DNA of 64,000 nucleotides from Aestuariivirga litoralis (lineage in GTDB: Bacteria; Pseudomonadota; Alphaproteobacteria; Rhizobiales; Aestuariivirgaceae): contig NZ_QKVK01000001.1 of NCBI RefSeq assembly GCF_003234965.1, positions 186,001 through 250,000 on the forward strand, written 5' to 3'. Positions 20,172-41,092 of this stretch are shown here, in pieces. Both the position numbers and the translations under genes were made by a program. The notes under the pieces are model-generated. The model saw only the letters and a list, made by a program, of their open reading frames with translations, was not told the DNA's origin and made no database searches. Numbering within the stretch: the stretch's first letter is position 1; the number at the start of each line of letters is the position of its first letter.

Positions 20172-20651
20172 TCACCACAGGGCCGAGGGTGCCGTGCCGC
20201 CGATCACCTCGGCAATGCGCCGGCGGGTGCCCGGCGTGGTTCCGTCAGGCAGCGCCGACACCGGAAAGAAGCGTGCCTCCGCAATCTCGGCCCCCGGCGT
20301 GAAGCCCTGCTCGCGGAAGCGGCGCAGGATGTAGCAGGCCACGTGATCGCCCACGAACTGGGCGTCATTGAGGTAGATGCCATGCAGCTGCGGCGCTTCT
20401 TCCGCAACGATGCCGGCCTCCTCGCGCAGTTCGCGGATGGCGGCATCGGCGAGCGCCTCGCCGCGTTCCACCCCGCCGCCCGGCAGCAGCCAGCCCGGCG
20501 TATAGCCATGGCGCACCAGCAGGACCTGCGGCGGATCGCCCTTGAGCGCCAGAACGCGCGTGCCAAGCGTCATTCCGCGCGTCTGGCGATAGACGGCATG
20601 CAGGAATGGCTTCATGACGCGAAATGCGGCACGCTTCAGGGGCTCGGACAT
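20172..20651 (-). CDS. Nudix hydrolase
   Basis: A 159-residue protein with an intact Nudix box (LPGGGVERGEALADAAIREL followed by REEAGI). The N-terminal helix region (MKPFLHAVYRQTRGMTLGTR) is common in a group of alphaproteobacterial Nudix proteins of unknown substrate. It is transcribed divergently from the candidate ceramide synthase, whose ATG lies 73 bases away. Confidence 0.88.
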   Translation of the reverse strand: MSEPLKRAAFRVMKPFLHAVYRQTRGMTLGTRVLALKGDPPQVLLVRHGYTPGWLLPGGGVERGEALADAAIRELREEAGIVAEEAPQLHGIYLNDAQFVGDHVACYILRRFREQGFTPGAEIAEARFFPVSALPDGTTPGTRRRIAEVIGGTAPSALW

Positions 20652-20724: not shown

Positions 20725-21867
20725 ATGACCCAGTCCGTCAGCGTCCGGCCGGTACGCGGCAAGGAAGACCTCAAGGCCTTCCTCGACGTGCCGTTCGCGC
20801 TCTATGCCGGTGATCCGAACTGGGTGGCGCCGCTCTATGTCGAGCGCTTCGAGCACCTCGATCCGCAGAAGAACCCGTATTTCCGCCATGCCGAGGTGGA
20901 GCTGTTTCTTGCCTTTCGCGGCAACAGGCCGGTGGGCCGCATTTCGGCGCAGCTCTGCCGCCTGCGCAGCGAGCGCTACCAGGATGGCGTGGGCCAGTTC
21001 GGCTTTCTGGAGGCCGAAAACGATCCAGACGTATTCGCGGCACTCATCGAGGCGGCCTCGGCCTGGCTGAAGCAGCGCGGCGCGACCGCCATGCAGGGGC
21101 CGTTCAGCTTCTCGATCAACGACGAGACGGGGCTGCTCATCTCAGGCTTCGGAACGCCGCCTTCGGTGATGATGGGCCATGCCCTTCCCTATTATGCCGA
21201 ACGCCTCGAGGCTGCGGGCTTCCGCAAGGCCAAGGACGTCATCGCCTATGACTTCATCGAACAGGGCGAGATGCCGCGGGCGCTCAAGTCCGCCTTCGAC
21301 AAGGCGACCGCCGACAAGGACGTGGTGCTGCGCCCTCTCGACAAGAAGCAGCTGATGAAGGAGCTGCAGACCGTCGTCTCGATCGCCAATGATGCGTGGT
21401 CGGACAACTGGGGCTTCGTGCCCTGGACCGAGGAAGAGATGACGGCACTCGCCAACAATCTCAAGATGCTGGTGACCGGCGACTATGTGGCGATCGCCGA
21501 ATACCGCGGCGAGCCCGCGGCCATGGCCATCACGCTCCCCAACATCAATGACTGGATCGCGGGGCTCGGTGGAAAGCTGCTGCCGCTGGGCTGGGCCAAG
21601 CTGGCGTGGAACCTGTTTGCGAGGCCGCCGGCGGCGGTTCGCATGCCGCTGATGGGCCTGCGCCGCAAGTATCACGGAACACCGGTGGGCGCCGTGCTCG
21701 GCATGGCGGTGATCGCGCGGGTCCGGAACTACCATGTCGGCCGCGGCACCACGCGGGGCGAGGCAAGCTGGATCCTCGAGGACAACATGCCGATGCGCCG
21801 CATGATCGAGAGCTTCGGTGGCAAGCCCTACAAGACCTACCGCATTTATGAGAAGTTAATCGGTTAG
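20725..21867 (+). CDS. GNAT-fold acyltransferase, candidate bacterial ceramide synthase (bCerS-like)
   Basis: A 380-residue protein starting MTQSVSVRPVRGKEDLKAFL, with a GNAT-like N-terminal half (LFLAFRGNRPVGRISAQLCR) and a second one (YVAIAEYRGEPAAMAITLPN; the end matches the GNAT tail GEASWILEDNMPMRRMIESF). Proteins of this length and type are usually annotated as N-acetyltransferase or hypothetical. Caulobacter bCerS, which N-acylates 3-ketosphinganine-type bases, is a GNAT-superfamily protein encoded near spt. The assignment here rests on fold and on lying in the same 10 kb as spt, acp, cerR and an acyl ligase. ATG 20725 starts where the conserved domain begins. Confidence 0.6.
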   Translation: MTQSVSVRPVRGKEDLKAFLDVPFALYAGDPNWVAPLYVERFEHLDPQKNPYFRHAEVELFLAFRGNRPVGRISAQLCRLRSERYQDGVGQFGFLEAENDPDVFAALIEAASAWLKQRGATAMQGPFSFSINDETGLLISGFGTPPSVMMGHALPYYAERLEAAGFRKAKDVIAYDFIEQGEMPRALKSAFDKATADKDVVLRPLDKKQLMKELQTVVSIANDAWSDNWGFVPWTEEEMTALANNLKMLVTGDYVAIAEYRGEPAAMAITLPNINDWIAGLGGKLLPLGWAKLAWNLFARPPAAVRMPLMGLRRKYHGTPVGAVLGMAVIARVRNYHVGRGTTRGEASWILEDNMPMRRMIESFGGKPYKTYRIYEKLIG

Positions 21868-21882
21868 GCGCTACCCGCGTGA

Positions 21883-21899
21883 GGCAGCGGCGTGCTGCC
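21883..21899 (+). promoter_or_regulatory. Hairpin in the gap between the GNAT and phosphoesterase genes
   Basis: GGCAGC-GGCGT-GCTGCC is a perfect 6-bp stem with a 5-base loop, 16 bases after the GNAT stop codon. There is no T-run, so it is more likely a message-stability or attenuation element than a terminator, if it functions at all. Confidence 0.3.
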
Positions 21900-21938
21900 A
21901 CCTGAAGTTCGTCCGTCAGTCAGAGTTCGACAGTACAC

Positions 21939-22859
21939 GTGTTCACCCTCGCCCATCTCTCCGACCTGCATCTCGGGCCCCTTCCGGCGGGCTCGGCGCA
22001 TCGTCACTTTGCCTTCAAGCGGGCCATCGGGGTGATGAACTGGCGCCTCAACCGCCACCGCGTGCACAGCCCCGCCGTGGCCCTGGCGGTGGCCGCCGAC
22101 ATCATGCGCAGCGCGCCCGACCACGTGGCCCTCACCGGCGACATCGTCAACGTTGCGGCGCGTGACGAGTTCACCGCCGCGGCGCGCTGGATGGACACCT
22201 TCGGCACGCCGGACTGGATCAGCTTCGTTCCCGGCAACCATGACTGCTACGTGCGCATGGCCTGGGAACATGGTCTCTTCCATCTCGAGCCCTACATGCG
22301 CGGCGACATGCGCGTGCCGCTCACCCAGGAAACGCCGCAGATCCTCACCCCCTTCCCCTATGTGCGGCTCAGGCGCAACGTGGCGTTGATCGGCCTGTCC
22401 AGCGGGGTGCCGCAGCCTTTGCACCGCGCCTCGGGGCAATTGGGCCGCACCCAGCTGAAATCACTCGCCGGCCTTCTCTCCGACCTGCGCGAGCGTGGCT
22501 ATGCCCGGGTGGTGATGATCCACCATCCGCCGCTGCCGGGCCTCGCCAGCCCGCGCAAGGCGCTGATCGACGCCAGCCTGCTGCGGGGCGTCCTGGAGGA
22601 ACACGGCGCCGAGCTGGTGCTGCACGGCCACAACCACGAACACATGCTGAACACCTTCAATTCACGCTTCGGCGCCGTTCACGTGCTGGGCGTGCCTTCC
22701 GCCTCCCTGATCGAGGACGAGCACCACCCGGTGGCAGCCTGGAACCTCTACCGCATCCAGCGCCAGGCAGGAAAATGGCAGATCGACGTGTCCATCCGCA
22801 GCTATGACCCGGCCAGCCGGCAGATCGCCCCCCTCACCGAATTCGCCCTTTCTTCCTGA
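21939..22859 (+). CDS. Calcineurin-like metallophosphoesterase
   Basis: A 306-residue phosphoesterase with the full metal-binding set: HLSDLHLG (residues 5-12), TGDIVN, PGNHDCY, MIHHPPLPG and LHGHNHEH. No signal peptide, so it is cytoplasmic. The start is a GTG at 21939, chosen because the first motif follows five codons later. Substrate unknown. Position just upstream of the lptFG-kinase group, and after the candidate ceramide synthase, allows a role in lipid phosphate or headgroup turnover, but that is inference only. Confidence 0.88.
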   Translation: MFTLAHLSDLHLGPLPAGSAHRHFAFKRAIGVMNWRLNRHRVHSPAVALAVAADIMRSAPDHVALTGDIVNVAARDEFTAAARWMDTFGTPDWISFVPGNHDCYVRMAWEHGLFHLEPYMRGDMRVPLTQETPQILTPFPYVRLRRNVALIGLSSGVPQPLHRASGQLGRTQLKSLAGLLSDLRERGYARVVMIHHPPLPGLASPRKALIDASLLRGVLEEHGAELVLHGHNHEHMLNTFNSRFGAVHVLGVPSASLIEDEHHPVAAWNLYRIQRQAGKWQIDVSIRSYDPASRQIAPLTEFALSS

Positions 22860-22922
22860 GCGGCGGCTGGCTAGATTGCAGCCCCAACCAAGCCCCCTCC
22901 CCTGCGGAAGCTGAAAACCATC

Positions 22923-24143
22923 TTGCTGCTCCCCATCCTCGACAGGCATGTCATGCGGCAGGTGTCCCTTCCCCTCGCGGGGGCGCTGATCATCGGCCTG
23001 CTGATGCTGCTGGCCGACCGCATGGTGCGCCTGCTCGACACCACGCTGGGCAAGAAGAACTCGTTTTCCGTGGTGTTCGAGATGCTGGCCTACCTCGTGC
23101 CGCATTACCTCGGCACCGCGCTGCCGGCAGCCCTGTTCCTCGGCCTGCTGCTGGGCTTCGGCAAGATGTCGGCCAATTCCGAGACGGATGCCTTCATGGC
23201 CTCCGGCATCGGCCTCAACCGCATGGCCCGGCCGGTGATCCTGATGGGCGTGGCGATCAGCCTGATCTCGCTCGTCATCATGGGCTGGCTCCAGCCCTAT
23301 GCCCGCTATGCCTACCGTTCGGTGGTCTTCGACGTGCAGAACGTCGAGGTCTTCTACCTGGCGGAGGAGGGCGTGTTCATGCAGGCGGGCGACCGCACCT
23401 TCATCATCGACAAGCTCAACCGCGCCACCAACGCCTTCGAGCACGTCTTCATCTACGAGAACAAGGACGACAAGGGCTCCGACACCGTCACCGCCTCGCG
23501 CGGGCGCCTGCTGGAAAGCCCGGCGGGCCAGCGGCCGACACTGCATCTCGAGGATGGCCACCGGCTCACCTTCAAGGCCGCCCCCGATGTGAATTCGGCC
23601 GATCCTGCCATCGGCGAGGCCACGGAGTTCGCCCTTGCCGACACGCCGCTTGGCCGCATCTCCAAGGACATCTTCCGCCCGCGCGGCGAGGACGAGCGCG
23701 AGCTGACGCTGCCGGAACTCTTCGCCGCCCTCGACAATCCGCCGCCCAAGTCGAGCCATGACGACGTCAGCTCGGAGCTGAGCGAGCGGCTGGTGACGGC
23801 GGCGAGCATCCTCATCCTGCCCTATCTCGCCATTCCCTTCGCCGTCGGCTCGCGGCGCAGCGCGCGCGGCTTCCGCACCGGCGTCGCGCTGGTGCTGATC
23901 GTGGTCTACAACGAGATCATCCACCAGGGCGCGTCGCTGTCGAACCACGGCGTGGCCTCGCCGTTTCTCACCATGTGGCTGCCCTGCCTGCTGCTGGCAC
24001 TGTTCGCCGCCTGGCGCTACATCGGGACCTGCTTCACGCTGCGCAACGACCCCGTGGGCGGGCTCATCGACCGCGTCGGCGACTTCTTCGGCGGCCTGCG
24101 CCACAGCGTGGTCCGCCGGCTTGGATGGGGAACAACGTCATGA
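22923..24143 (+). CDS. LptF-family lipid transport permease
   Basis: A protein of about 406 residues of the YjgP/YjgQ (LptF/LptG) family: three N-terminal membrane helices (ILDRHVMRQVSLPLAGALII...), a periplasmic beta-jellyroll domain (about 110-280) and three C-terminal helices. The motif GFGKMSANSETDAFMASGIG marks the cytoplasmic coupling region that contacts the LptB ATPase. LptFG normally extract LPS for the Lpt bridge. Start codon uncertain: TTG 22923 or the in-frame ATG 22953. It overlaps lptG by the ATGA pattern. The usual downstream lptD-surA-pdxA genes are absent, so LPS may not be its cargo. Confidence 0.85.
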   Translation: MLLPILDRHVMRQVSLPLAGALIIGLLMLLADRMVRLLDTTLGKKNSFSVVFEMLAYLVPHYLGTALPAALFLGLLLGFGKMSANSETDAFMASGIGLNRMARPVILMGVAISLISLVIMGWLQPYARYAYRSVVFDVQNVEVFYLAEEGVFMQAGDRTFIIDKLNRATNAFEHVFIYENKDDKGSDTVTASRGRLLESPAGQRPTLHLEDGHRLTFKAAPDVNSADPAIGEATEFALADTPLGRISKDIFRPRGEDERELTLPELFAALDNPPPKSSHDDVSSELSERLVTAASILILPYLAIPFAVGSRRSARGFRTGVALVLIVVYNEIIHQGASLSNHGVASPFLTMWLPCLLLALFAAWRYIGTCFTLRNDPVGGLIDRVGDFFGGLRHSVVRRLGWGTTS

Positions 24144-25216
24144 TGAAGATCCTCGGCTGGATGCTGAACCGCATGGTGGCCATCCGCTTCTTCGGCATCC
24201 TGTTCGGCATCTCCTTCTTCGTGCTGTCGCTGGACGTTCTCACCAACGCCAAGGACCTCCAGGCGCTGCGCCCCAACGACATGACGATCCTGCTGCAATA
24301 CATGCTCTACCGCGCGCCGTCGGTGCTGGTGAACTACATGGGCATCTCGATGCTGCTCGCCATGCTGCTCAGCCTCACCGAACTCAGCTACCGCAACGAG
24401 ATGGCGGCGATGTGGGCAGCCGGCGTGTCGCCGGCGCGCATCATCATCATGCTGCTGCCGCTGGCCTTCGTGGCCGGGGGGCTCAACTTCGTGCTCTCGG
24501 ACTCCGCCATCCCCGCCACCACCCCGCAGCTGCGCGACTGGGGCATCGGCGATTATGGCGCGGAAAAGCTGAAGCTCGGCGAAAAGGACCCGATCTGGAT
24601 GCGTGCCGGGCCCGACATCCTGCGCGCCGGCAGCGCCAATGGCGACTCGACCAGGCTCAATGACGTCATCATCTTCCGCCGTGACGACCAGGGCCTGCTG
24701 CGCGAGCAGATCTATGCCAAGTCGGCCGCGCTCGACGAGGGCCGCTGGACGCTCACCAAGGTGCTTGTCTACTACCGTGACAACCTGCAGCCCTCGCGGC
24801 TCGACACGCTGGTCTATTCCGGCAACATGAAGCCCGCCCAGGCCGGGGCACGCTCCGGCGCGCCGGAGGACATGGCGCTGACGGAACTGTTCTACTTCAT
24901 GGACAACCAGGGCTTCGGCATCCGCCCGGTCTGGGTCTACGAAACCTGGGCCAACAAGCGCATCTCGCTGTTCTTCTCCGGCCTGCTGATGATGGGCCTG
25001 TGCATTCCGCTCGCCACCCGCTTCCGCCGCGGCGGCGGGCTCGGCGCCCTGTTCGCGGTGGGCGTCGGCATCGGCTTCGTCTACTTCATCGTCGACGGCA
25101 TATCGCTCACCATGGGCGAACTTGGCTTCGTCAAGCCATGGCTGGCCGCCTGGCTGCCGATCCTCGCCTTCGGTTCGCTCGCCGTGGTCATGACCCTCAG
25201 GTCGGAGACGGTATGA
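24140..25216 (+). CDS. LptG-family lipid transport permease
   Basis: A 358-residue partner of the preceding LptF: N-terminal helices (MVAIRFFGILFGISFFVLSL), the coupling region LTELSYRNEMAAMWAAGVSP, a periplasmic jellyroll domain (about 120-260) and C-terminal helices ending near LPILAFGSLAVVMTL. Starts at ATG 24140, with a second ATG directly after. The stop overlaps the kinase start (ATGA), so permease and lipid kinase are translated together. Confidence 0.85.
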   Translation: MMKILGWMLNRMVAIRFFGILFGISFFVLSLDVLTNAKDLQALRPNDMTILLQYMLYRAPSVLVNYMGISMLLAMLLSLTELSYRNEMAAMWAAGVSPARIIIMLLPLAFVAGGLNFVLSDSAIPATTPQLRDWGIGDYGAEKLKLGEKDPIWMRAGPDILRAGSANGDSTRLNDVIIFRRDDQGLLREQIYAKSAALDEGRWTLTKVLVYYRDNLQPSRLDTLVYSGNMKPAQAGARSGAPEDMALTELFYFMDNQGFGIRPVWVYETWANKRISLFFSGLLMMGLCIPLATRFRRGGGLGALFAVGVGIGFVYFIVDGISLTMGELGFVKPWLAAWLPILAFGSLAVVMTLRSETV

Positions 25217-26181
25217 CAGGCATGCCGCAGCATGCCGGCGTGATCATCAATCCCCTGGCCGGCCGCGGCAACGGCAAGGGCCAGGCGCTGGCCGACACGT
25301 TGAAAGGCGACGCGGGCATCTCGCTGCATCTGCTTGAGCGCTTCGAGCACCTCGAGGGCGTGATCGACGACATGGCGCGGGACCGGGTGACCGACCTGTT
25401 CATCAGCTCCGGCGACGGCACCATCCAGGAAATCCTCACGCTGATCGCCGAACGCGGCGGCTTTCCCGTCCTGCCGCGCATCTGCCTCCTGCCGCATGGC
25501 ACCACCAACCTCAGCGCCAACGACCTCGGCTTCCGCAGTTCGTCGATCGCGGCACAGGCCCATTTCGTGCGCAGCCTGAACGCCACGGCACTGGTCAGCC
25601 GCAACACCATCCGCTGCGCCAATCCGGGCGACGGCAAGGTGCGGCACGGCATGTTCGTCGGCACCGGCGCCATTGCGGTCGCCACCCGGCATTGCCAGCA
25701 GGCCTTCAACGACCAGGGCGTGAAGGGCCAGTGGGCGGTGGCCAAGACGCTGATGTCGGCGGTGGGCAAGTATCTCTTTTCCGCGCCCGACCCCGCCGAT
25801 CAGTCACGCTTCGACCGGCCCTATGCCATCAGAGTCGAGGCCGGGGGGCGCCGCATCGCGGACGGCATGCAGCTCCTGCACATGTCGACGACGCTCGACA
25901 CGCTGCTGCTGCACAGCCACCCGTTCTGGGGCGGCAAGACCGCGCCGATCCGCACCACCGTGCTGCCCTATCCCGTGCCGTCGGTTCTGCGCTGGATGCT
26001 GCCCATCATGTATGGCGGCGAGAACCACGCCGCACCCGAGGGCGCAGTGAGCTTCAGCTCGGACAGCCTGGCGGTCAGCTCCGAGGCGATCTTCGTCATC
26101 GATGGCGAGTTCTTTCCGCCGCCGGCGGGTGAAGCCTTGCGGCTGGAGACCGGGCCGCTGTTCACCTTCGTGAGGGGCTGA
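25213..26181 (+). CDS. Diacylglycerol/sphingoid-lipid kinase-family protein, candidate ceramide kinase
   Basis: A 322-residue protein of the DAGK catalytic family: VIINPLAGRGNGKGQA (residues 10-25), the nucleotide loop ISSGDGTIQE (SGDGT at 66-70) and LPHGTTNLSAND (94-105). The usual GGDGT is SGDGT. The family phosphorylates diacylglycerol, sphingoid bases or ceramide. It is coupled to lptG and ends 7 bases from the convergent spt gene. A DAGK-like protein in the Caulobacter sphingolipid locus (CpgB) is a ceramide kinase, so ceramide or a ceramide precursor is the favoured substrate here; diacylglycerol remains possible. Confidence 0.8.
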   Translation: MTGMPQHAGVIINPLAGRGNGKGQALADTLKGDAGISLHLLERFEHLEGVIDDMARDRVTDLFISSGDGTIQEILTLIAERGGFPVLPRICLLPHGTTNLSANDLGFRSSSIAAQAHFVRSLNATALVSRNTIRCANPGDGKVRHGMFVGTGAIAVATRHCQQAFNDQGVKGQWAVAKTLMSAVGKYLFSAPDPADQSRFDRPYAIRVEAGGRRIADGMQLLHMSTTLDTLLLHSHPFWGGKTAPIRTTVLPYPVPSVLRWMLPIMYGGENHAAPEGAVSFSSDSLAVSSEAIFVIDGEFFPPPAGEALRLETGPLFTFVRG

Positions 26182-26188
26182 CGCGGCC

Positions 26189-27397
26189 TCAGCCGTTCGC
26201 CACCTTCTTGCCGTGGCCCTGCGCCACCACTGCACCGAACAGTTCGATGATGCGGTCGAGGTCGGCGTCGGTATGGGCCGCCGAGACGGAGCAGCGCAGC
26301 AGGCACATCTTGTTGGGCGTGCCGGGCGGCAGCGCGATGTTGACGTAGACTCCGGCCTTCAGCAGCGCGTTCCACATGGCAATCGTCGAAGGCTCGTCCG
26401 GGCAGCGCACCGCCACGACCGGGCTTGCCTCGTCGCAGCCGAGTTCGAGGCCCAGCGCCTTGAAGCCGCTGAACAGCCGCGCCGAATTGTCGGCGAGCCT
26501 GCGGCGCCGCTGCGGCTCCGCCGCCAGCTTGCGGATCGCCGCGATCGAGGTGGCGATCGACGCGGGCGATGACGACGCGGTGAACATGTAGGGCCGCATC
26601 GCGAAGCGCAGAAGCTCGAAATAGGGGTGGTTGCCGGCGCCGAAACCGCCGATGGCGCCAACGCTCTTCGAGAAGGTTCCGACCACGAAGTCCACCTCGT
26701 CCTCGAGGCCTGCCTCATCCGCGAGGCCACGGCCATGGGGGCCGAGCACGCCGAAGCTGTGCGCCTCGTCGACGAGCAGCTGGAAGCCGTGCTTCTTCTT
26801 CACCTCCACGAAGTCGGCGAGCGGGGCGCGGTCGCCCATCATGGAATAAATGCCTTCGAGGACCACCAGCTTGCCGCCGCCGTCTTCCTCAGACCGCGAC
26901 AGGCGCTTGTCGAGGTCGGCGGCGTCGTTGTGGCGGAAGCGCACCAGCTTGGCGCCCGACAGCGTGCAGCCGTCATAGATCGAGCTGTGCGAGTCGGCGT
27001 CGAGGTAGATCGTGTCGCGCGGGCCTGCGAGGCCCGACATCATGCCGAGGTTCGCCTGGTAGCCGGTGCTGAAGATGATGCAATGCCTGCGGTCGAGGAA
27101 GCGGGCGAATTCCTGCTCCAGCTCCTTGTGCAGCGCATAGGAGCCGTTGGCGATGCGCGAGCCGGTGGTGCCGGTGCCGAACTCCGCCAGCGCCTTCTGC
27201 CCGGCTGCGATGCACTCGGCATCGAAGGTGATGCCCATGTAGTTGTTGGTGCCGGCGAGGATCGTCTCGCGGCCCTCGATGATGGCGCGGGTGGGCGACA
27301 GCAGCCTCTCCATCACGGCGCCCACGGCGTCGCCGCCCAGCGCCTTCATGCGCGCGTGGCGCTCGGCAAGGCCTTCGAGCTTGGCAAGCAGGTCCAT
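26189..27397 (-). CDS. spt: Serine palmitoyltransferase (alpha-oxoamine synthase)
   Basis: A 402-residue PLP enzyme that condenses L-serine with an acyl thioester to 3-ketosphinganine. Family hallmarks: FGTGTTGSRIANGSYALH (73-90), LLVDEAHSFGVLG (207-219, with PLP-contacting Asp210 and His213) and GTFSKSVGAIGGFG with the PLP lysine at 244. The last closely resembles Sphingomonas serine palmitoyltransferase. The length suits the soluble bacterial enzyme. Identity over 8-amino-7-oxononanoate synthase or 2-amino-3-ketobutyrate ligase is supported by the dedicated ACP 3 bases upstream and by the cerR and acyl-ligase neighbours. Confidence 0.88.
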   Translation of the reverse strand: MDLLAKLEGLAERHARMKALGGDAVGAVMERLLSPTRAIIEGRETILAGTNNYMGITFDAECIAAGQKALAEFGTGTTGSRIANGSYALHKELEQEFARFLDRRHCIIFSTGYQANLGMMSGLAGPRDTIYLDADSHSSIYDGCTLSGAKLVRFRHNDAADLDKRLSRSEEDGGGKLVVLEGIYSMMGDRAPLADFVEVKKKHGFQLLVDEAHSFGVLGPHGRGLADEAGLEDEVDFVVGTFSKSVGAIGGFGAGNHPYFELLRFAMRPYMFTASSSPASIATSIAAIRKLAAEPQRRRRLADNSARLFSGFKALGLELGCDEASPVVAVRCPDEPSTIAMWNALLKAGVYVNIALPPGTPNKMCLLRCSVSAAHTDADLDRIIELFGAVVAQGHGKKVANG

Positions 27398-27400
27398 GTC

Positions 27401-27640
27401 CTACCCTTTCCTCGTGCGCGCCTCGACGACCGCGGCGAGGTCGGCCACCGTGCGCGTCTCCGACAGCACGTTGAGCGGAATCTCGATGTCGAAATGGTCC
27501 TCGACCTCCATCACGAAGTCCATCACCGTGACGGAGTCGATGTTGAGGTCGGTCGAGATGTCGGTCGCGGCGGAGAGAACCGTGCCATTGGTGTTGAACG
27601 GCTGCAGCAGCGTGCAGAGCTGGGTAACGGTGTCGGTCAT
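27401..27640 (-). CDS. Dedicated acyl carrier protein for sphingolipid synthesis
   Basis: A 79-residue ACP with phosphopantetheine attachment serine at residue 36 (LNIDSVTVMDFVMEVEDHF). ATG 27640 is supported by AAGGA eight bases upstream and by ATGA overlap with the cerR-like stop. It ends 3 bases before spt. In Caulobacter a specialised ACP next to spt supplies the acyl thioester, loaded by the neighbouring acyl-ACP synthetase. Confidence 0.9.
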   Translation of the reverse strand: MTDTVTQLCTLLQPFNTNGTVLSAATDISTDLNIDSVTVMDFVMEVEDHFDIEIPLNVLSETRTVADLAAVVEARTRKG

Positions 27641-28608
27641 TGAGACGTCCTTGAACTGGCGGTCCTTGTATCGGTGCCGCGCCCCTGAGGCAACCACCCG
27701 GCAGCCCGGTACCAGGTCACGGTTTCGGCAAATCCAGCGGCGAAGGGGGTGGGATCGGCCAGCGCCAGGCCGCCCGGCCGCGCCACCCAGTCGACGTGGT
27801 AGAGCTCGGCGATCTTGCCGCGGTTGACCATGCCCGGCTTGCCGGTGAGCCGCGCCAGGCCCTCCGCCACGGTCGCCACCGCCGCCGGCACGGCCCGCGG
27901 CAGGAAAATGGCCCGCACCGGGCCGCCGCGGAAGGCGGAGGCCGTGCGGATGAGGTCCGGCCAGCCATAGCCGCCCTCCTGGCCGTCGCTCACCTCGTGC
28001 AGGCCCTGCTCGTTCCCCTCCACGGCACGCACGATGAGGCGGGCGAGGTCGCGGCCGTGAATCAGTGAAAACCGTGCGCCCGCCGGGCCGGGAATGGCGG
28101 CGACGGGCCGCGTCAGTTCCTTGATCAGGGGCAGCGTGCCCCTGTCACCGGGGCCATAGACGGCCGGCGGCCGGATCAGGATGGCATTGAGGGCCGCCAT
28201 GCGGTGGCGCACCACCTCTTCCCCCGCCCGCTTGCTCGCCGCATAGCCCGAAAGCTGCGGCTCGCGTGCGGCGAGCGAGGAAATGTGCACGAAGCGCGGC
28301 ACACCCGCCTCGAGCGCGGCATCGGCCAGCGCCCGCGTGCCGTGTTCGTTGACCCTGAAATAGCCCGAGCGGTCGAGCGCGGTCAGCGCCCCCGCGAGAT
28401 GGATGACGGCATCGGCCCCGGCGACCAGCCGCGCCAGCGCGGCATCATCCGCGAGATCGCCCCTGACGGTTTCGACGCCGGGCGGAAGGGCTGCCGTTTG
28501 GGGGCTGCGCAGCAGCGCGCGCAGGCGGTGGCCGCGCGGCAGCAGCTCGGCAACGGCGTGCCTCCCGGCGAAACCGGAGGCGCCGGTGATGGCGATGGTC
28601 TTGCTCAT
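27637..28608 (-). CDS. NAD-dependent epimerase/dehydratase-family reductase, CerR-like
   Basis: A 323-residue extended SDR with nucleotide motif TGASGFAG (8-15), the HLAGALTALDRSGYFRVNEHG region, and catalytic Tyr122-x3-Lys126 (SGYAASKRAGE). In Caulobacter the homologous locus gene cerR reduces the 3-keto group of the ceramide intermediate. The cerR role here is inferred from its position between the acyl ligase and the ACP. No signal peptide is seen. Confidence 0.78.
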   Translation of the reverse strand: MSKTIAITGASGFAGRHAVAELLPRGHRLRALLRSPQTAALPPGVETVRGDLADDAALARLVAGADAVIHLAGALTALDRSGYFRVNEHGTRALADAALEAGVPRFVHISSLAAREPQLSGYAASKRAGEEVVRHRMAALNAILIRPPAVYGPGDRGTLPLIKELTRPVAAIPGPAGARFSLIHGRDLARLIVRAVEGNEQGLHEVSDGQEGGYGWPDLIRTASAFRGGPVRAIFLPRAVPAAVATVAEGLARLTGKPGMVNRGKIAELYHVDWVARPGGLALADPTPFAAGFAETVTWYRAAGWLPQGRGTDTRTASSRTSQ

Positions 28609-28636
28609 GAATTCCGGTGCGGCGGGCAGCCCCGCC

Positions 28637-30436
28637 TCAGTGGACGGCCTCGAGGCTGTCCGGGGCGGCGGCCAGCGTCAGCGCAGACAATTCGGCGATC
28701 TCGCCCGACAGGAACTTCTGCTTGGCGGCAGCGCGCGACAGCTTGCCGGAGGACGTGAAGGGCAGGCTCTTGGGCGGCACCATCACGACCTTGCACTCGA
28801 CGCCCGCCGAGCGGTGCACGACAGCCGACACCTCATGGCGCAGCGCCTCGATCGAGGCCATGTCCTGCAACCGGCACTGCACCAGCACCGTCACCTCGTC
28901 CTCGCCTTCGTCATTCTCGACGGCGAAGGCAGCGACGTCGCCGTCACGCAGCGGCTCGATCTGTTCGGCGGCCCATTCGATGTCCTGCGGCCAGATGTTG
29001 CGGCCATTGTGCAGGATCAGGTCCTTGGCGCGGCCGGTGATCACGATCTCGCCGTCGAGCCAGTAGCCCATGTCGCCGGTGTCGAGGAAGCCGTCCTGGC
29101 CGATCACCGCGGCGGTGGCCTCGGCATTGTGGAAGTAGCCCGTCATCAGGCTCGGCGTCCTGACGAAGATGCGGCCCACGGCGCGCGCGCCCAGCACTGT
29201 GCCGCGCTCGTCGCGGATCTCGACGGTCGAGCCCTCCATCGGGCGGCCGCAGACCACGAAGCTGCGGGCACTGGCCCCGCGGGCGGGAATGGCGCGGCCC
29301 TCATGCTTCAGGGCGCTGCGGTCGATCGAGTCGATGCGGATCGGCTTGTCGGCATCGACGAAGGAAATGGCCAGCGTCGTCTCGGCCATGCCGTAGCTCG
29401 GCAGGAAGGCCTGGGGGCGGAAGCCGGCGACGGAGAGATGCGCCGCAAAGCCTTCCAGCACGTCGGCGCGCACCATGTCGCCGCCGATGCCGGCGATGCG
29501 CAGGCGCGAGAGATCAAGCGTCACCGCATCGCCATTGATGCGGCGCGCGGCGAGGTCATAGCCGAAGCTCGGCGAATAGGTGATGGTCGACTTGTTGTCC
29601 GACATCAGCTTCAGCCACAGTGCCGGGCGGCGCGCGAAGGACGTGGTGGCGAGGAAATCGACGCTCACCTGCCCCATGGCGGGCGACAGGCAGAAGCCCA
29701 CGAGGCCCATGTCGTGATAGAGCGGCAGCCACGAGAAGGCGCGGTCTTCCGGATTGATGCGCATGCCATCGCGCAGGATGCCGCGGGTGTTGGACATGAT
29801 GGCCTGCTGCGAGATCAGCACGCCCTTGGGGTTGGACGTCGAGCCGGAGGAATACTGGATATAGGCATCCTCATCGGCCCTGAAGGGCTCGAGCTTGGTG
29901 GCGGCCTCCGGCAGTGCCTGCAGTTCGGCGTGGGTCAGCACGCGGCGCGCACCGGCGCGGGCCGCACCCTCGGTGATGTGGCCGAGCAGGTCCTCGCCGG
30001 TGATCACGGTTCCGGCCTTGGCGGCGGCCAGCATGCCGGCCACGCGGTCGATGTAGCTGTCCTTGCCGCCGATATACATGGTGTAGGGCATCGGGCAGGG
30101 AATGAGGCCGGCATACTGGCAGCCGAAGAACACCGCCATGAATTCAGGCCCGGTCTCGGCCACGACGGCGACGCGGTCGCCGCGCTTCAGGCCGAGGGAG
30201 AGAAGCTTGCGCGCGGTGGACAGCGCCTGGCGGCGGAGCTCCGCATAGGGCAGCACGTGCTGCAAGGCGCCGCGCGGGGAATAGAAATTGAAGCCGGTGA
30301 CGCCCTTGGCCGCATAGTCGAGGCCTTCGGCGAGCGTCCCGAAGCCGGCAAGGTTCTGTGCGAGGCTGCGATTTGAGGTCGGCGTAACCGATCCGGCCGC
30401 GTCGGCGTCAGCGTTCCGCTTCAAAGCGCTCTGCAT
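28637..30436 (-). CDS. Fatty acyl-AMP ligase / acyl-ACP synthetase of the sphingolipid operon
   Basis: A 599-residue adenylate-forming enzyme. AMP-binding loop AYIQYSSGSTSNPKGV (191-206), then SWLPLYHDMGLVGFCLSP, the LPSYGMAETTLAISF block and GFLDTGDMGYWLDGEIVITG, all typical of fatty-acyl-AMP ligases of the FadD32/FAAL group. It probably activates a fatty acid and loads the ACP encoded two genes downstream (AasR role in Caulobacter). It is the first gene of the aas-cerR-acp-spt operon. ATG 30436 has AGGG about 10 bases upstream. Confidence 0.85.
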   Translation of the reverse strand: MQSALKRNADADAAGSVTPTSNRSLAQNLAGFGTLAEGLDYAAKGVTGFNFYSPRGALQHVLPYAELRRQALSTARKLLSLGLKRGDRVAVVAETGPEFMAVFFGCQYAGLIPCPMPYTMYIGGKDSYIDRVAGMLAAAKAGTVITGEDLLGHITEGAARAGARRVLTHAELQALPEAATKLEPFRADEDAYIQYSSGSTSNPKGVLISQQAIMSNTRGILRDGMRINPEDRAFSWLPLYHDMGLVGFCLSPAMGQVSVDFLATTSFARRPALWLKLMSDNKSTITYSPSFGYDLAARRINGDAVTLDLSRLRIAGIGGDMVRADVLEGFAAHLSVAGFRPQAFLPSYGMAETTLAISFVDADKPIRIDSIDRSALKHEGRAIPARGASARSFVVCGRPMEGSTVEIRDERGTVLGARAVGRIFVRTPSLMTGYFHNAEATAAVIGQDGFLDTGDMGYWLDGEIVITGRAKDLILHNGRNIWPQDIEWAAEQIEPLRDGDVAAFAVENDEGEDEVTVLVQCRLQDMASIEALRHEVSAVVHRSAGVECKVVMVPPKSLPFTSSGKLSRAAAKQKFLSGEIAELSALTLAAAPDSLEAVH

Positions 30437-40006: not shown

Positions 40007-41092
40007 ATGAGTGCGGGCGTTGAACTCGATCACATTACCGTCCGTTTCGGTCAGTTCACCGCCGTGGACGACGCCACGCTGGACATCCGGGGCGGCGAAT
40101 TCTTTTCCTTCCTCGGCCCCTCGGGCTGCGGCAAGACCACGATCCTGCGCACCGTCTCGGGCTTCCTCGATCCGTCCCAGGGCAAGGTCCGGATCGGCGG
40201 ACAGGACATGGCGGGGATCGGCCCCAACAAGCGCCCCACCGCGCTGATCTTCCAGAACCTCGCGCTCTTCCCGCTGATGACGGTGGCCGACAACATCACC
40301 TATGGCCTGCGCGTGCGCGGCGTCTCGAAGGAGGAGCGCAGGAAGCGTGCGGGCGAGCTGCTCGACCTCATCGCCCTTCCCGGCCAGGGCGACAAGCTGG
40401 TGAGCGAACTGTCCGGCGGCCAGAAGCAGCGCGTGGCGATCGCCCGCGCGCTGGCCGTCCAGCCCAAGGTGCTGCTCCTCGACGAGCCGCTCTCGGCGCT
40501 CGACCTCAAGCTCCGCCAGCACATGCGCAACGAGCTGCGCGCCATCCAGCAGCAGGTCGGCATCACCTTCATCTACATCACCCATGACCAGGGCGAGGCG
40601 CTCACCATGTCGGACCGCATCGCGGTCATGTCCGACGGCGTCATCCAGCAGGTGGCCGACGGCAAGACCGTCTACGACCACCCGGACACCCCCTTCGTCG
40701 CCTCCTTCGTGGGCGAGAACAATCCCTTCGCCGGCAAGGTGGTCTCCGCCGACGGCGAGCATGCCGCCATCGAAACCGCCCATGGCGTGCTGCGCGGCCG
40801 CAACGACAGGAAGCTGAAGGCCGGCGACCGTGCCATTCTCTTCGTGCGCCCTGAGAGCTTCCGGCTGGGTGCCGGCGCGTCGGATGCGACGATCGTCTCC
40901 GAAACGCTCTCCAGCGCCTTCGAGGGCAATGCCACCCACGTCTTCCTCAAGGGCTCGACCAAGAAGGACATCACCGTCACCGTCGCCCGCCACGGCAGCC
41001 ACAGGATCCCGGCGCAGGGCGAAGCGGCGGCGATCCACTTCGACCCCTCGATGGGCGTCGTGCTGCCGGAAGGGAAGATGGCCCGTGAGTAG
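40007..41092 (+). CDS. ABC transporter ATPase (PotA type)
   Basis: A 361-residue importer ATPase: Walker A GPSGCGKTT, signature LSGGQKQRVAIARAL, Walker B VLLLDEPLSALD, switch histidine in YITHDQGEALTMSD, and a C-terminal TOBE domain (about 280-361). It energises the two following permeases. ATG 40007 is supported by AGGGG 10 bases upstream. Its stop overlaps the first permease start by 8 bases. Confidence 0.93.
   Translation: MSAGVELDHITVRFGQFTAVDDATLDIRGGEFFSFLGPSGCGKTTILRTVSGFLDPSQGKVRIGGQDMAGIGPNKRPTALIFQNLALFPLMTVADNITYGLRVRGVSKEERRKRAGELLDLIALPGQGDKLVSELSGGQKQRVAIARALAVQPKVLLLDEPLSALDLKLRQHMRNELRAIQQQVGITFIYITHDQGEALTMSDRIAVMSDGVIQQVADGKTVYDHPDTPFVASFVGENNPFAGKVVSADGEHAAIETAHGVLRGRNDRKLKAGDRAILFVRPESFRLGAGASDATIVSETLSSAFEGNATHVFLKGSTKKDITVTVARHGSHRIPAQGEAAAIHFDPSMGVVLPEGKMARE

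Follow-up and report, generated by a model that had tools for sequence, protein, structure and literature searches.

What does a permease pair of the lipopolysaccharide (LPS) transport type do inside a ceramide gene cluster, in a bacterium whose genome yielded neither LpxC nor LpxB? The question is raised by a locus in Aestuariivirga litoralis, a genus placed in Hyphomicrobiales by the NCBI taxonomy. The window analysed here comprises 64,000 nucleotides of contig NZ_QKVK01000001.1 (positions 186,001 to 250,000, forward strand; coordinates below are window positions), and its ten-gene locus combines candidate enzymes of ceramide synthesis with an LptF/LptG pair. We consider it likely, on the strength of gene content and sequence comparison, that a ceramide-type sphingolipid is produced by this locus and exported through the permease encoded there, and that this lipid has replaced LPS in the organism and its family. 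Genomes, loci, families and contigs of our samples are denoted G, L, f and C, respectively.

A candidate ceramide pathway

The locus consists of two converging gene runs. A sequence-only reading of this DNA had proposed that it encodes all steps of a candidate ceramide pathway like that of Caulobacter. Family matches together with a comparison with the E. coli spt locus supported this, the pathway being of the Caulobacter/Rhodobacteria type. The five ceramide genes stand in the order given by that reading: spt (26189–27397), acpR (27401–27640), cerR (27637–28608) and aasR (28637–30436) on the minus strand, and bCerS (20725–21867, ATG at 20725) on the plus strand. Open reading frame (ORF) coordinates also reproduce the spacing described for the minus-strand run, namely 28 bases between aasR and cerR, an overlap of 4 bases between cerR and acpR, and 3 bases between acpR and spt; acpR has an alternative ORF start further upstream, at 27697. 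On the plus strand the last gene stops at 26181, leaving 7 bases to the spt stop codon.

The serine palmitoyltransferase (SPT) scored above the curated NCBIfam cut-off of NF047599 (SerpalmtaseBetaP; 589.4 vs 500 bits) and below that of NF047603 (SerpalmtaseAlphaP; 498 vs 670 bits). Its best solved relatives in the PDB were SPT chains, led by 2x8u at 452 bits, with KBL/AONS chains reaching at most 210 bits; 2x8u, like 2jg2, we take to be a Sphingomonas enzyme, and the TFSK sequence presumably marks the lysine that binds pyridoxal phosphate. A chance match or an AONS/KBL paralogue is ruled out by these NCBIfam and PDB scores. The fatty acyl-AMP ligase/acyl-ACP (acyl carrier protein) synthetase AasR (FAAL) exceeded the cut-off of NF006624 (765 vs 600 bits), and its best solved relative was the fatty acyl-adenylate ligase 3pbk (496 bits). 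AcpR, the dedicated ACP encoded 3 bases before spt, matched PF00550 at 40.1 bits and carries its attachment serine within the motif NIDS. The reductase, of the NAD-dependent epimerase/dehydratase family (PF01370, 102.7 bits; YAASK motif), was identified as CerR-like by its 38% identity to the E. coli spt-locus protein and its equivalent position; assignment as HpnA was rejected (96 bits against a cut-off of 367.65). Identity to the E. coli proteins was 42% for bCerS (YghO), 43% for FAAL, 40% for ACP and 50% for SPT.

The bCerS-like ceramide synthase had no match to any Pfam or NCBIfam family. Its AlphaFold model (pLDDT 91.6) matched tandem-GNAT structures in the PDB with a best E of 3.8e-15. 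Placement in the bCerS clade had been named earlier as a check on this assignment, and in a midpoint-rooted tree of 142 rows the main group included the window protein together with E. coli YghO. Outside it stood five homologues with 32–38% identity: L067–L070, from LpxC-positive genomes, and L073, which is an additional copy carried by G027, a member of the window's own family. In G025, from the same genus, one in-frame TAG interrupts the bCerS match (C42:42873-44000).

From these relationships we infer that the locus makes a ceramide-type sphingolipid, every enzyme activity included. AasR would load a fatty acid onto AcpR, and SPT would condense the AcpR-bound fatty acid with serine; bCerS would then add the second acyl chain before CerR reduces the ketone. 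These steps are read from the enzyme families and follow the Caulobacter scheme, in which AasR and AcpR feed SPT (PMC9386255) and the cytoplasmic step of bCerS comes ahead of the periplasmic one of CerR (PMC11087976).

The sequence-only reading had also spoken of lipid genes on the plus strand, and these can now be named. Downstream of bCerS lie a calcineurin-like metallophosphoesterase (21939–22859; PF00149, 44.8 bits; SDLH and GNHD motifs), LptF (22923–24143), LptG (about 24125–25216, with a start at 24125 or at 24140/24143) and a lipid kinase of the diacylglycerol kinase family (25213–26181). Having seen the ceramide genes, that reading passed over the neighbouring metallophosphoesterase, the lptFG pair, the kinase and the genome-wide context of LpxC, LpxB and Lpt.

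The kinase matched PF00781 at 47.3 bits, shows SGDGT where GGDG is expected for a CpgB-type ceramide kinase, and has a gene neighbourhood like that in Caulobacter (PMC11324152). It is probably a ceramide kinase of the type of CpgB, whose activity on ceramide has been reported (PMC10331486), and it would phosphorylate the ceramide to ceramide-1-phosphate or a derivative; our guess at the final product is ceramide-1-phosphate or something simply derived from it. The metallophosphoesterase is possibly the counterpart of Caulobacter CC_1158. As an anti-phage phosphoesterase it was rejected (50.6 against a cut-off of 420).

Clusters of relatives such as L055 hold further genes: two nucleotidyltransferase genes, a CDP-alcohol transferase, a 295-residue protein, an ABC exporter and a small protein that looks HIT-like by eye. 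None of these was found in the window locus, save one weak ABC match at 40025–40669, and a genome-wide search for a CC_1159-like CDP-alcohol transferase, with the L055 homologue rather than CC_1159 itself as query, returned generic matches of at most 40.6 bits. Because these head-group genes are missing from the locus, the Caulobacter lipid CPG2 is unlikely to be made here.

Divergent from bCerS is a NUDIX hydrolase gene on the minus strand (20172–20651; PF00293, 68 bits), the tenth gene of the locus. A nudix match lay within the fetched stretch in 22 of the 33 loci L045–L077 and in 7 of the 80 loci L078–L157. All ten genes were found in five loci of the first set (L046, L049, L050, L052 and L065) and two of the second (L081 and L082, the latter from a metagenome-assembled genome named Aestuariivirga sp.), counts in which absence is weak evidence, as many fetched stretches end at a contig or window edge. 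The locus is real rather than a chance arrangement, since all ten genes recur in L046, L050, L081 and L082 with 73–94% identity per protein. A promoter and terminator scan of the locus gave nothing better than shuffled sequence.

Two kinds of LptFG and an Lpt bridge without LpxC or LpxB

Both permease proteins of the window belong to the PF03739 superfamily (LptF 226.6 and LptG 205 bits, cut-off 27.9), and both fall below the equivalog cut-offs for the LPS permease (LptF, TIGR04407, 216 vs 230; LptG, TIGR04408, 206.2 vs 240). In a FastTree phylogeny of 201 LptF/G proteins (of 204 candidate ORFs; domains outside 280–420 residues were dropped), the window pair, hereafter LptF2 and LptG2, grouped with ceramide-locus copies of Kiloniellales, Methylopila, Burkholderiales and others. 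Copies encoded beside lptD formed groups of their own. IQ-TREE and identity comparisons were made with 18 ceramide-locus rows of the nearer group, excluding the E. coli, Nitrosomonas and Nitrospirales set. The window clade and the canonical rows each formed one branch, with support of 100 and 99 for LptF and 100 and 100 for LptG. Mean identity of the window LptF was 33.5% to the 18 ceramide-locus proteins and 19.2% to 19 canonical ones; for LptG the values were 27.0% and 20.9%.

The two kinds also differ at positions 40–41 of E. coli LptG, a basic pair that we take to touch the phosphates of lipid A. Canonical rows have R at these positions in 18/19 and 14/19 cases. The window clade varies at position 40 and mostly has an acidic residue at position 41 (D or E, 18 of 22 rows); the window protein reads K-D. 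The clearest evidence that the two kinds of LptFG are old paralogues comes from G074 (family f7), which carries a canonical lptFG beside lptD as well as a ceramide-locus pair, the two being 20% identical. Transfer of an ordinary lptFG into the ceramide locus was ruled out, as both kinds occur in G074 at this low identity and in separate groups.

The remainder of the A. litoralis genome was read for the other parts of the bridge. It holds lptC-lptA-lptB-rpoN on contig C22 and lptD on C20. LptC (51.5 bits, cut-off 38) and LptB (373, cut-off 240) were found above their cut-offs; LptA scored 47.1, under the cut-off of 71.7, yet matched PF03968 at 57.1, over 20.4. The near sample of 120 genomes (69 of the same family, 51 others of the order) contained LptD in 115 genomes and LptC in 110, including 67 and 65 of the family. 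PF03739 matches in the A. litoralis genome number three: the two members of the window pair and, on C22, a solitary LptF that is likewise below the LPS-LptF cut-off. The ceramide-locus pair is thus the sole LptFG pair of this genome. By ORF reading, the solitary gene (L011 1390-2550; C22:154962-156017) is flanked by a cupin-like gene on one side and a FYDLN-type ORF on the other.

The usual place of the LPS permease pair is empty. In A. litoralis only about 194 bp separate pepA from lptD, no canonical lptFG was found between them, and surA, pdxA and rsmA come next. We read 46 lptD loci, 24 from LpxC-less genomes chosen for having lptD and 22 from LpxC-positive ones. Canonical lptFG was found in none of the 24 stretches from LpxC-less genomes; pepA was in range in 19, at 153–912 bp between matches, and out of range in 5. 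Among LpxC-positive genomes the pair was present in 22/22 stretches (one cut by a contig end), a biased count, as 20 of these loci (L177–L195 and L218) had been picked for a pair seen near lptD; pepA was in range in 20, at 2547–3304 bp.

Searches for two LPS enzymes gave no match above cut-off in the family. LpxC above cut-off occurred in 0/69 family genomes vs 44/51 others of the order, and LpxB in 0/69 vs 41/51; in these same searches the best matches in the 44 and 41 genomes had E of 3e-69 or better. One family genome, G044, gave a single LpxC match, below cut-off. The A. litoralis genome had no LpxC and no LpxB match, in searches that did not extend to LpxA, LpxD, LpxK or the 3-deoxy-D-manno-octulosonic acid (Kdo) genes. 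An LpxC missed through incomplete assembly was rejected as an explanation, given a genome rated 100% complete and 69/69 family genomes without a match above cut-off. LPS itself is presumably absent from the organism.

We see only a slim chance that LPS or a lipid-A-like molecule is still made, by enzymes that have diverged beyond the reach of the LpxC and LpxB models, and that the bridge works as usual except for an exchanged permease. In favour of such an account, the searches covered just those two enzymes and, with LptE left out of the searches, all parts of the bridge seem to be in place. However, it would require two separate enzymes to have slipped below cut-off in every family genome when both were found in most others; it also sits poorly with the loss of the LPS permease pair from its usual place and with the mostly acidic second residue of the LptG basic pair.

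The reading we prefer is that the bridge now serves the sphingolipid. LptF2 and LptG2, with LptB, LptC, LptA and LptD encoded elsewhere, would lift an anionic sphingolipid from the inner to the outer membrane. In this organism and its family, where LpxC, LpxB and the usual permease pair have been lost and the other Lpt parts retained, the sphingolipid would stand in place of LPS. It is from gene content that we infer the substrate, its location at the surface and its export through LptF2G2-LptBCAD.

LPS genes and bCerS across the order

A bCerS relative was found in 78/120 near genomes, 66/69 of the family and 12/51 of the others; the three family genomes without one are G009, G044 and G061. 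The sequence-only reading had taken ceramides as something that few Hyphomicrobiales are known for. Relatives of the ceramide synthase, at least, are not rare in the order: among 397 genomes sampled across it, 89 had a bCerS relative of any kind. LpxC was present in 346 of them and LptD in 378. With strong bCerS defined as 398 bits or more (n=38; the threshold was set after the scores were seen), LpxC was missing in 35/38 strong-bCerS genomes vs 16/359 others. The LpxC- and LptD-negative lists were read off tables, and the 31 LpxC-negative genomes outside the family were identified by exclusion, with an agreeing total.

LptD mostly went with bCerS among genomes that lack LpxC. It was kept in 33 of the 35 LpxC-less strong-bCerS genomes, and also in G155, G176, G327 and G337, four genomes that lack LpxC and whose bCerS relatives are weaker. 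Twelve LpxC-less genomes had no bCerS relative, and LptD was found in three of these (G188, G226 and G392, which are 56, 58 and 85% complete); among those at least 90% complete it was found in 0/5 (G118, G133, G154, G187 and G215, four of them in family f51). In the f51 genomes of the sample (G118, G154, G187, G215, G239 and G261; 2.5–4.0 Mb), no LpxC, LptD or bCerS relative was found, and a search of G118 for LptF/G and LptC gave no match either. G176 and G327, both 100% complete and in the genus of Methylopila turkensis (G101, family f34), have bCerS relatives and LptD and no LpxC match. Eleven of their genus mates in the sample have LpxC, and a recent further loss of LpxC in these two genomes is possible.

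A tree of PepA, PdxA and RsmA (43 rows, repeated with the 36 left after rows under 40% filled were dropped) placed most LPS-less families together, with f7 among them. Family f7 has LpxC, canonical lptFG and the ceramide locus all present, and its placement has modest support; G114 was weakly placed, and f5 stood apart in the 36-row version. G074, 94% complete and LpxC-positive, gave no LpxB match and is the only f7 member searched for LpxB. Family f7 may be part-way to the loss of LPS, and G074 may be an intermediate.

Could the cluster simply have come down from a common ancestor, with the absence of LpxC and LpxB and the Lpt pattern as unrelated effects of lineage? The pattern may indeed stem from one or a few losses: LPS state on the three-protein tree needs 3 changes, and a single LPS-less clade was not rejected (p-AU 0.114 in the approximately unbiased, AU, test). 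We nevertheless regard this explanation as highly improbable, for three reasons. Family f7, which has LpxC, canonical lptFG in its place and the ceramide locus, falls among the LPS-less families, if with modest support; G176 and G327, lacking LpxC and carrying a bCerS relative, have also kept LptD; and the six f51 genomes lack bCerS relative, LpxC and LptD alike.

Adjacency within the locus bears on another alternative, that ceramides are made but LptF2G2-LptBCAD exports a different lipid, such as a hopanoid, a glycolipid or a phospholipid, the shared location reflecting co-regulation. The window locus lacks the head-group genes that its relatives carry, and scores below both LPS-equivalog cut-offs point away from ordinary LPS and leave the lipid unspecified. 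Yet of the loci that hold both bCerS and the kinase, 15/16 in the set of 33 and 29/37 in the set of 80 have LptF or LptG between the two; an lptFG pair also adjoins the E. coli spt locus, and LpxC-less genomes mostly keep LptD with this type of bCerS and mostly do without it if they have no bCerS. We therefore consider export of another lipid unlikely. As a variation on the layout, the ceramide loci L048, L051 and L094 have a single LptF/G-family gene, of the LptG type, between the phosphoesterase and spt.

Several observations nonetheless weigh against sphingolipid export in place of LPS. The loss of LPS is read from two enzymes, LpxC and LpxB, and several genes present in the clusters of relatives, the CDP-alcohol transferase among them, are missing from the window cluster. 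The association between strong bCerS and missing LpxC has a Fisher p of 2.8e-34, or 8.5e-16 without the family itself, both of which ignore kinship. The three strong-bCerS genomes with LpxC all belong to f7, which has thus kept LpxC together with the locus, and G050 (100% complete) and G208 (61%) have strong bCerS, no LpxC and also no LptD. Three LpxC-less genomes outside the family, G082, G103 and G104, have four or five PF03739 matches, of kinds that were partly read. A second set of ceramide-locus LptFG (E. coli L045, Nitrosomonas, Nitrospirales and Desulfobacterota) stands apart from the window group and the canonical groups alike in the FastTree phylogeny, its LptF nearer the canonical group with weak support (0.468); ceramide-locus LptFG is therefore not one plain family. 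Finally, trees that hold the window clade and the canonical rows together were not rejected (p-AU 0.389 and 0.608), a test that is uninformative on affinity because the trees are unrooted.

We lean towards a wider history, in which a Hyphomicrobiales clade around Aestuariivirgaceae and several further families lost its LPS and turned all of the Lpt bridge over to sphingolipids. Deletion of the LPS permease pair and its replacement by the ceramide-locus pair would have taken place perhaps more than once, with f7 representing the state before the loss.

Comparison with known systems

The pathway itself, for a lipid more familiar from animals, is a further member of the known Rhodobacteria/Caulobacter kind. 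What is new is a genome in which neither of the LPS enzymes searched for nor the LPS permease pair remains to explain the kept Lpt bridge. In the open-licence PMC literature, no paper on LPS-less, sphingolipid-bearing Hyphomicrobiales was among the matches listed, and no LPS or sphingolipid wording was found in PMC8555084, which treats the Aestuariivirgaceae group. The finding points to organisms for studying Lpt without LPS and bears on how lipid A, which is usually essential, can be lost.

The E. coli spt locus (L045; PMC9386255) shares bCerS (YghO), FAAL, CerR, ACP and SPT with the window at 38–50% identity and has an lptFG pair next to spt. Unlike the window, the L045 stretch gave no kinase or phosphoesterase match, and its spt-locus LptFG groups apart from the window pair; E. 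coli K-12, moreover, has an ordinary lptFG beside pepA. Sphingomonas resembles A. litoralis as a sphingolipid producer naturally without lipid A (PMC10964400), the absence of LPS in A. litoralis being read from genes. It belongs to a different group, however, and the genes of S. wittichii are spread over six regions (PMC11324152).

The closest comparison is with Caulobacter crescentus, whose region CC_1168–CC_1152 shares with the window the spt-acpR-cerR-aasR run, CerS, a ceramide kinase, a phosphoesterase and a second lptF/lptG (PMC11324152). Caulobacter differs in making LPS, and its region holds LptC2 and a potential flippase. The route of bacterial sphingolipids to the outer membrane has been described as unknown (PMC11324152), with no flippases or transporters yet identified (PMC11087976), and the second Lpt proteins of Caulobacter were suggested as sphingolipid carriers and left untested (PMC11324152). 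The A. litoralis genome, in turn, has no strong match to a CC_1159-like transferase and no nucleotidyltransferases at the locus, and its LptFG is the sole pair. It thus offers a natural case in which the second permease is the only one, and in which the question of sphingolipid transport raised in Caulobacter becomes directly testable.

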